The position numbers and the translations under genes are program-made. The notes beneath the pieces were generated by a model, which had not been told where the DNA came from, made no database searches, and saw nothing but the letters and a program-made list of their open reading frames with translations. From contig WQYT01000007.1 in assembly GCA_009781115.1 (NCBI GenBank), positions 1 to 38,488 of the forward strand: 38,488 nucleotides of DNA, written 5' to 3'. Origin of the DNA: Coriobacteriia bacterium. Lineage in GTDB: Bacteria; Actinomycetota; Coriobacteriia; WRKU01; WQUG01. Positions 2,378 through 4,255 of this stretch are shown piece by piece. The first letter of the stretch is position 1; the number at the start of each line of letters is the position of its first letter.

Positions 2378-2395
2378 CCCGTCCCCCTGTGTTCC
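2378..2395. repeat. Left 18-bp inverted repeat (REP-like) flanking hipBA
   Basis: CCCGTCCCCCTGTGTTCC, reverse complement of 4238-4255. Confidence 0.9.
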
Positions 2396-2405
2396 GAGGC
2401 ACGGA

Positions 2406-2432
2406 CAGAGGTGCGCCGAGAGCGTCGCGCCC
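2406..2432. repeat. Divergent copy of the GC-rich repeat found in triplicate at 9926-10066
   Basis: cagaggTgcgccgagAGcgtcgcgccc vs cagaggcgcgccgaggtcgtcgcgccc (24/27). Confidence 0.8.
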
Positions 2433-2567
2433 AACAGAGGTTTTGGCCAGCCAGAATTGCAACAGTTGGCGCCTGGAGCAGCCTGCGGTAGCAGGCGATA
2501 TTCAAACCCACGAGCATAGCCGCAAGCTATTGGATACAGCAAAAACCCGCGAGCGTATTAGCAGCTC

Positions 2568-2661
2568 TTATGCGGACGCATAAATTTTGCTGTTTTACGG
2601 GCGTATTTATGCGAGCGTATATATTGTGCTACAATGGCTTATGATTTATGCGAGCGCATAA
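2568..2661 (+). promoter_or_regulatory. Promoter/operator region of hipBA with three 16-bp palindromes
   Basis: TTATGCGGACGCATAA (2568-2583), TTATGCGAGCGTATAT (2607-2622), TTATGCGAGCGCATAA (2646-2661); TACAAT -10-like box at 2630-2635. Confidence 0.85.
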
Positions 2662-2674
2662 TAAGGAGGCTGCT

Positions 2675-2929
2675 GTGGAACAAATCGATATCAAGACACC
2701 GGCAGAGCTCGGTCAGCTCATGAAGAGGCGGCGCAAGGAGCTTGGCCTTACTCAAAAAAGTGTCGTTGACGTCGCCCCGTTTGGTCCTACTTTTTACTCT
2801 GATCTGGAAAATGGCAAAACAACCGCGCAGCTTGGTAAAACTCTTGAGGCGATCCGTATGCTTGGCCTACGCGTAGCGATTACCCTGCCCGATACCACGC
2901 CGCCCGCCAACTCAAAGGATCAGTCATGA
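2675..2929 (+). CDS. hipB: HipB-like antitoxin, XRE-family HTH (GTG start at 2675 preferred to the ORF-track ATG at 2648)
   Basis: IKTPAELGQLMKRRRKELGLTQKSVVDVA...FYSDLENGKTTAQLGKTLEAIRMLGL; aaggagg RBS at 2663-2669 upstream of GTG 2675. Confidence 0.85.
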   Translation: MEQIDIKTPAELGQLMKRRRKELGLTQKSVVDVAPFGPTFYSDLENGKTTAQLGKTLEAIRMLGLRVAITLPDTTPPANSKDQS

Positions 2930-4215
2930 AGCTCAGCGTCTACCATGATAAAACGCTGATCGGCTCTCTGGAGGCGGCGCCCGCCCGTCTTTCTTTCTGC
3001 TATGCTCCAGAGTTTCTCGCGGCAAACCCTTACCCGATCTCGCTTTCTCTGCCCCTACAGAAAGCCCCCTTTTCTGCGCAGGCAACCGAGCGCTTTTTTG
3101 ACGGCCTGCTGCCAGAAGAAGATGAGCGCAGGCGCATGGCGCGCTACTTGCACGTGCCTGCTGCCAGTACCAGTAAGCTTCTGTCTGCTCTGGCGGGCGA
3201 CTGCGTGGGTAATCTGACGATACTTTCTTCTGATCATGACTTTGAACAGCTTTTGTCGCAGAGCAACTATCAGCCGCTTGCGCCCACCGAATTTCAAGCT
3301 ATCATCGGGGAGTCACCCGCGCTGATTACGCAACTATCCGCGGAAAACAGGCTTTCTATCCCTGGGGCCCAAAGTAAGATCGGGCTCTATCATAAGCCAG
3401 GGGCGCCTCCGGTGGACTGCGATGGCTGGTGTGTGCCGCAGGGGCTTTTTGCTTCTACTCATATTGTCAAGCCGGACTCGCGCTTCTATCCTTTGACCTC
3501 GCTTAACGAGTATCTGTGTACCCGCCTCGCGCAAGCCGTTGGCATTGCGACCGCTGAAGTTTTTCTCATCAACAACCAGGCGAGCGCTCAGGGTAAAGGC
3601 AGGGACCAGGCCGTGTTGGTGTCTGAGCGTTTTGATCGCGCGTGTAACGAAAGTGGTTTTGTTACGAGGATCTGCCAGGAGGATTTCTGCCAGGCACTTT
3701 CCTATTCTTCGCGCTACAAATACGAAGCCGACGGAGGCCCCGGCTTTGCAGAAATTATTGCGGTCTTGCGCTCCGAGCCCTCAAACCCGCCGCTTGATGT
3801 TCAGCGATTTATCCAGCTTTTCCTCTTTAACTATCTGATTGGCAATAGTGACGCCCACGCAAAGAACTACTCTCTGCAACGCGATACAGCAGGCAGGCTT
3901 TGCCTGGCGCCTGCTTACGACCTGGTGAGCACGACGTTTTATCCGGAGCTCAGCAGAAATCTTGCCATGGGGGTCGCGGGTTGTTATGACCTCGATCAGA
4001 TAACGCAAAAACACTGGCAGGCTCTATGCGAGCAAAATCAGCTGTCCTGGTCACGGCTACATGAGATTGCAACAGAAATAGCTGAGGGGGTAACAGACGC
4101 GCTCGATAACGGAAAAATCACCGCTCCGATCCAAAACTTTGACGAAGAGTTCACCGCGCTTTCTCATCACCTGCGCACCGAGATCCAGAGCCGAAAACAA
4201 ACGCTGATCGCCTAA
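2926..4215 (+). CDS. hipA: HipA-family Ser/Thr kinase toxin
   Basis: GAQSKIGLY, HIVKPDSRFYPLTSLNEYLCTRLAQAVGI, SERFDR, YLIGNSDAHAKNYSL, LAPAYDLVST motifs; overlaps hipB by 4 nt. Confidence 0.9.
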   Translation: MKLSVYHDKTLIGSLEAAPARLSFCYAPEFLAANPYPISLSLPLQKAPFSAQATERFFDGLLPEEDERRRMARYLHVPAASTSKLLSALAGDCVGNLTILSSDHDFEQLLSQSNYQPLAPTEFQAIIGESPALITQLSAENRLSIPGAQSKIGLYHKPGAPPVDCDGWCVPQGLFASTHIVKPDSRFYPLTSLNEYLCTRLAQAVGIATAEVFLINNQASAQGKGRDQAVLVSERFDRACNESGFVTRICQEDFCQALSYSSRYKYEADGGPGFAEIIAVLRSEPSNPPLDVQRFIQLFLFNYLIGNSDAHAKNYSLQRDTAGRLCLAPAYDLVSTTFYPELSRNLAMGVAGCYDLDQITQKHWQALCEQNQLSWSRLHEIATEIAEGVTDALDNGKITAPIQNFDEEFTALSHHLRTEIQSRKQTLIA

Positions 4216-4237
4216 GTGGCATATGTAACAGGGAGGG

Positions 4238-4255
4238 GGAACACAGGGGGACGGG
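4238..4255. repeat. Right 18-bp inverted repeat (REP-like) flanking hipBA
   Basis: GGAACACAGGGGGACGGG. Confidence 0.9.

Follow-up and report, generated by a model that had tools for sequence, protein, structure and literature searches.

A hipBA operon between inverted copies of a dispersed REP-like repeat, at a probable site of tRNA-adjacent toxin-antitoxin turnover in a Coriobacteriia genome

A hipBA toxin-antitoxin operon in a Coriobacteriia genome lies between the arms of an inverted repeat, which raises the question of whether these arms delimit a mobile element. The whole stretch of DNA analysed (the window) comprises 38,488 nt of contig WQYT01000007.1. An initial annotation had described an exact 18-bp inverted repeat flanking hipBA and its operators, and we confirmed it: CCCGTCCCCCTGTGTTCC occurs at 2378-2395 on the plus strand and its exact reverse complement at 4238-4255. 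These are the only two matches to the 18-mer with ≤3 mismatches in the whole window, where shuffled sequences predict 0.05, and the 18-bp arms form the sole perfect long inverted repeat within 1900-7500. Enclosed by the arms are hipB, hipA and three operator-like palindromes.

The palindromes (TATGCGnnCG(C/T)ATA; 2569-2582, 2608-2621 and 2647-2660, plus strand) were found by pattern match and are putative operators. They precede hipB (2675..2929, plus strand), an HTH antitoxin gene (HTH_31) that probably starts at a GTG preceded by AAGGAGG. HipB matches the couple_hipB model with an E-value of 3.8e-15, yet falls under the curated cut-off. The hipA gene (2926..4215, plus strand) encodes a HipA-family kinase toxin (HipA_C, 1e-46; Couple_hipA) that matches the solved E. 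coli HipA at 1e-44 and contains the kinase motifs SIPGAQSK, NSDAHAKN and PAYD. The locus thus combines the kinase motifs with a preceding HTH antitoxin gene, as expected of HipBA. Judged from sequence, HipA and HipB would constitute an ordinary autoregulated kinase toxin and its antitoxin. The top HipA match in the other Coriobacteriia genomes searched shares 39% identity. Plasmid matches to hipBA are distant, with the best among the matches listed at 33-36% identity, and viral contigs yielded a single marginal 36-residue match. No close hipBA relatives were detected in a pattern scan of genome contigs.

When both arms were checked for completeness, the left proved to be half an element and the right a full one. 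The right arm belongs to a complete 29-nt hairpin (4239..4267, minus strand; GAACACAATGTACCCGTCCCCCTGTGTTC on that strand) located 24 nt past the hipA stop codon, and the repeat to which it belongs is referred to here as class 1. The left arm (2378..2395, plus strand), in the divergent spacer between a zf_Tbcl zinc-finger gene and hipB, is the 3' half of a class-1 element; the 5' stem is absent and single-strand folding revealed no hairpin. We also considered the right-arm REP as a classical hipA terminator and rejected it, as RNA folding in context gave a z of -0.82, no better than shuffles; site prediction called no terminator-like site at the right arm. This REP may still have a terminator or mRNA role, but RNA folding lends it no support.

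The class-1 repeat constitutes a dispersed family of about 30-37 copies in the genome. Its 16-nt core occurs genome-wide in 29 places with ≤1 mismatch, and the reversed control in none, so the repeat is not private to hipBA. The complete element, GAACACARTGTACCCGWCCCCCTGTGTTC, is a hairpin with a 7-8 bp stem (z of -3.1 to -3.8 for full elements) and has 27 matches in the genome with ≤3 mismatches. Being short, present in many copies, palindromic when complete, dispersed and mostly intergenic, it is REP-like. Among the 27 exact-core copies in the contigs examined, with genes called mechanically as longest open frames, eight lie ≤25 nt past a stop codon; in seven of these eight the orientation is reverse to the gene, as it is for the right arm. 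This placement agrees with that of published REPs, which are often found just behind stop codons (PMC3733652). The exact core was absent from 148 of the 149 other genomes searched, with a single copy in the exception; apparently, the family was amplified in one lineage only. A literature search on the core returned only unrelated papers. The 51 REP-adjacent genes that we examined are mostly ordinary, and include four AAA_14/DUF4143 ATPases (C31, C42, C93 and C104) whose distance from the REP and side vary; DUF4143 has 21 matches genome-wide.

A sister class (class 2; GAGACAGAAGAACCGTCCCCCTGTCTC, GAGACAG...CTGTCTC) is more abundant than class 1, accounting for about 80 of 100 among the matches listed in a combined class-1/class-2 search. 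With ≤1 mismatch the two classes together have 164 matches, versus 3 for the reversed control. Sister-class copies are for the most part paired in inverted orientation, at spacings of about 50 or 75 bp. On contig C21, degenerate copies of this class flank a gene for a 249-aa RAYT-type Y1 transposase, which scores 77.3 bits against the RAYT model, just below the curated cut-off of 80. The genome also encodes an IS200-type tnpA on contig C52. RAYT genes as a rule lie between inverted REPs (PMC2817692). With class-2 copies on both sides of a RAYT-like gene elsewhere in the genome, the REP/RAYT lead of the initial annotation appears right, and the REP-like character that it had attributed to the repeat is supported. 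The RAYT genes it called for were found in part: a RAYT-like gene exists, but its flanks are class 2, and no class-1 repeats were seen beside the Y1 transposase genes on C21 and C52. A RAYT-type transposase acting in trans would have dispersed the REPs in the form of short hairpins, which would preferentially settle directly after stop codons.

We compared the window with a single Coriobacteriia metagenome-assembled genome of the same genus (WRFR01000024.1, designated G001). The zf_Tbcl gene (1996..2262, minus strand; PF13451) is a conserved left flank, collinear in G001 at 88%. In local alignments, homology on the left stops at window position 2363 (G001 5702) and on the right starts at 6281 (G001 6494), just before a tRNA-Ser gene (the right alignment scores 46, with shuffles at ≤33). 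The segment that differs is therefore 2364..6280, bordered by the zf_Tbcl gene and tRNA-Ser, and G001 has YefM-YoeB in its place (L125 5703-6493). The left arm begins 14 nt inside the left junction. Past the right arm, the segment continues with an abiEi antitoxin-like gene (4436..5260, plus strand; PF09407, 1.2e-16), behind a sigma-70-like promoter at 4367-4395 (site score 10/12), and an abiEii nucleotidyltransferase toxin-like gene (5251..6219, plus strand; PF08843, 1.9e-21; PADLOC AbiEii, 3e-61). Thus, the difference from G001 is not the interval 2378-4267, and G001 has no clean empty site that matches the repeat boundaries. Given that YefM-YoeB replaces the segment in G001 and that the best Coriobacteriia HipA is only 39% identical, the hipBA-abiE segment was likely either gained here or lost in G001. 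In these two genomes of the same genus, the tRNA-Ser site is occupied by different toxin-antitoxin systems.

The tRNA-Ser gene (tga; 6394..6483, minus strand; ARAGORN) is oriented with its 3' end towards the variable segment. Each of two tRNA-Ser genes is preceded by a copy of a 96-nt direct repeat (6294-6389 and 6537-6632; 83% identical, each with an internal inverted repeat), and similar sequence recurs in G001. In G001, the tRNA-Ser 3' end recurs as a partial copy of 22 bp (L125:6621-6642), which lies 125 bp from the intact gene (6621 vs 6746) and resembles an attachment-site scar. The only class-1-like REP of G001, a variant (C24, L125:6435-6468), occupies the counterpart of the hipBA locus, next to YefM-YoeB.

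The initial annotation had suggested checking whether the same repeats enclose other cargo. Other class-1 pairs spaced up to about 5 kb apart surround a short-chain dehydrogenase (C53), an M48 peptidase (C43), heme-biosynthesis genes (C66), a surface-type protein (C62) and a small toxin-antitoxin-like pair with an RHH protein (C71), that is, mostly ordinary genes. The C53 pair has a convergent geometry identical to that at hipBA. The dehydrogenase gene is collinear in G001 (81% identity), where the left REP is missing and the right side measures 5 bp, versus 137 bp including the right REP here. From this collinear, REP-free counterpart we infer that REP brackets form around stationary genes. 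Four class-1 pairs lie 0.7-2 kb apart, against 0.48 expected under a uniform null for which contig sizes were partly interpolated and which leaves intergenic bias outside; class-1 pairs are commoner than this null, so some REP clustering is real. On C53 (L081:11075-11280), two more dispersed repeats (around TTCTGCGACTTCGCGCAGAATGACA and GGATTGCCGCGTCGCTACGCTCCTCGCAATGACA) adjoin the class-1 REP and have matches on several G001 contigs. The C71 locus (L084:5365-6150) is a two-gene operon, encoding an 88-aa protein with no Pfam match and then the RHH protein; it is toxin-antitoxin-like and sits between class-1 and class-2 REP tracts.

In combination, the results make it very probable that the paired 18-mers do not delimit a mobile element but belong to a lineage-specific REP-like family, two copies of which were placed independently at a tRNA-adjacent site of toxin-antitoxin turnover. 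Gain and loss at this site would proceed via recombination or via integrative elements that have since decayed. Some observations count against this explanation, namely the excess of class-1 pairs at 0.7-2 kb, the C71 pair around a toxin-antitoxin-like operon, the position of the sole class-1-like REP of G001 at the same site, and a left arm only 14 nt from the junction. The mobilisable hipBA cassette of the initial annotation, a non-autonomous element bounded by the two repeats and dependent on a Y1/RAYT transposase supplied in trans, is nevertheless very improbable. Its exact inverted arms, the customary inverted orientation of REPs around RAYT genes, the Y1 transposase genes of the genome and the lack of hipBA at the sister site in G001 are all in its favor, but the left arm has lost the 5' half of its hairpin, the same geometry surrounds the stationary gene at C53, the variable segment runs past the right arm to 6280, and the searches revealed no second copy of this hipBA between repeats. 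Where a repeat is a member of a numerous REP family, its presence as perfect inverted copies on both sides of an operon does not by itself mark out a mobile cassette.

The larger segment could instead have been brought in by an integrative element for which the tRNA-Ser 3' end served as attachment site and whose integrase has since been lost. The orientation of the tRNA gene and the scar-like 22-bp copy in G001 fit such an arrival, which we regard as unlikely, given that the window contains no second tRNA-end copy beyond the segment and that none of the genes scanned within the segment or next to it encodes an integrase. The REPs themselves might also serve, without being transposon ends, as shared points of recombination at which toxin-antitoxin systems are exchanged beside tRNA-Ser. 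Since REPs lie near the junctions (two of the three at the site, counting both genomes, within about 25 bp) and the sole copy in G001 is here, there is a small chance that they matter for exchange, and the pair between REPs at C71 would be a second such toxin-antitoxin case. However, only two genomes are compared, intergenic REPs fall between modules anyway, and recombination between the inverted repeats at hipBA would invert the operon without excising it; we thus consider this role quite improbable. If true, REPs would shape toxin-antitoxin turnover between lineages. Independent placement of REPs at a turnover site is the reading that we retain.

Among known systems, the class-1 repeat is closest to the REP/TIR repeats of the RAYT/TIRYT tyrosine transposases (PMC2817692, PMC3733652). 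Like these, it is a short imperfect palindrome in many copies, largely intergenic and often just behind stop codons, and a related class (class 2) flanks a Y1 transposase gene in inverted orientation. Unlike them, class 1 has no canonical GTAG or CGTC head and was not itself seen adjoining a transposase gene; its core, GGGGGACGG, bears no more than a resemblance to GGGGWSAS, a motif reported for TIRs. The abiEi-abiEii pair, with overlapping frames and a toxin of the nucleotidyltransferase family, would represent an AbiE type IV toxin-antitoxin system. This pair sits outside the repeat bracket but inside the same variable segment.

In E. coli, HipA phosphorylates glutamyl-tRNA synthetase, and HipB neutralises HipA and autoregulates the operon. 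The operon described here differs from E. coli HipBA, a type II toxin-antitoxin system (HipA PDB 2wiu), in its distant sequence and in the sequence of its operators. It shares with E. coli HipBA the hipB-hipA gene order, an HTH antitoxin, upstream operator-like palindromes, and a full-length HipA with N-terminal and kinase domains and the kinase motifs.
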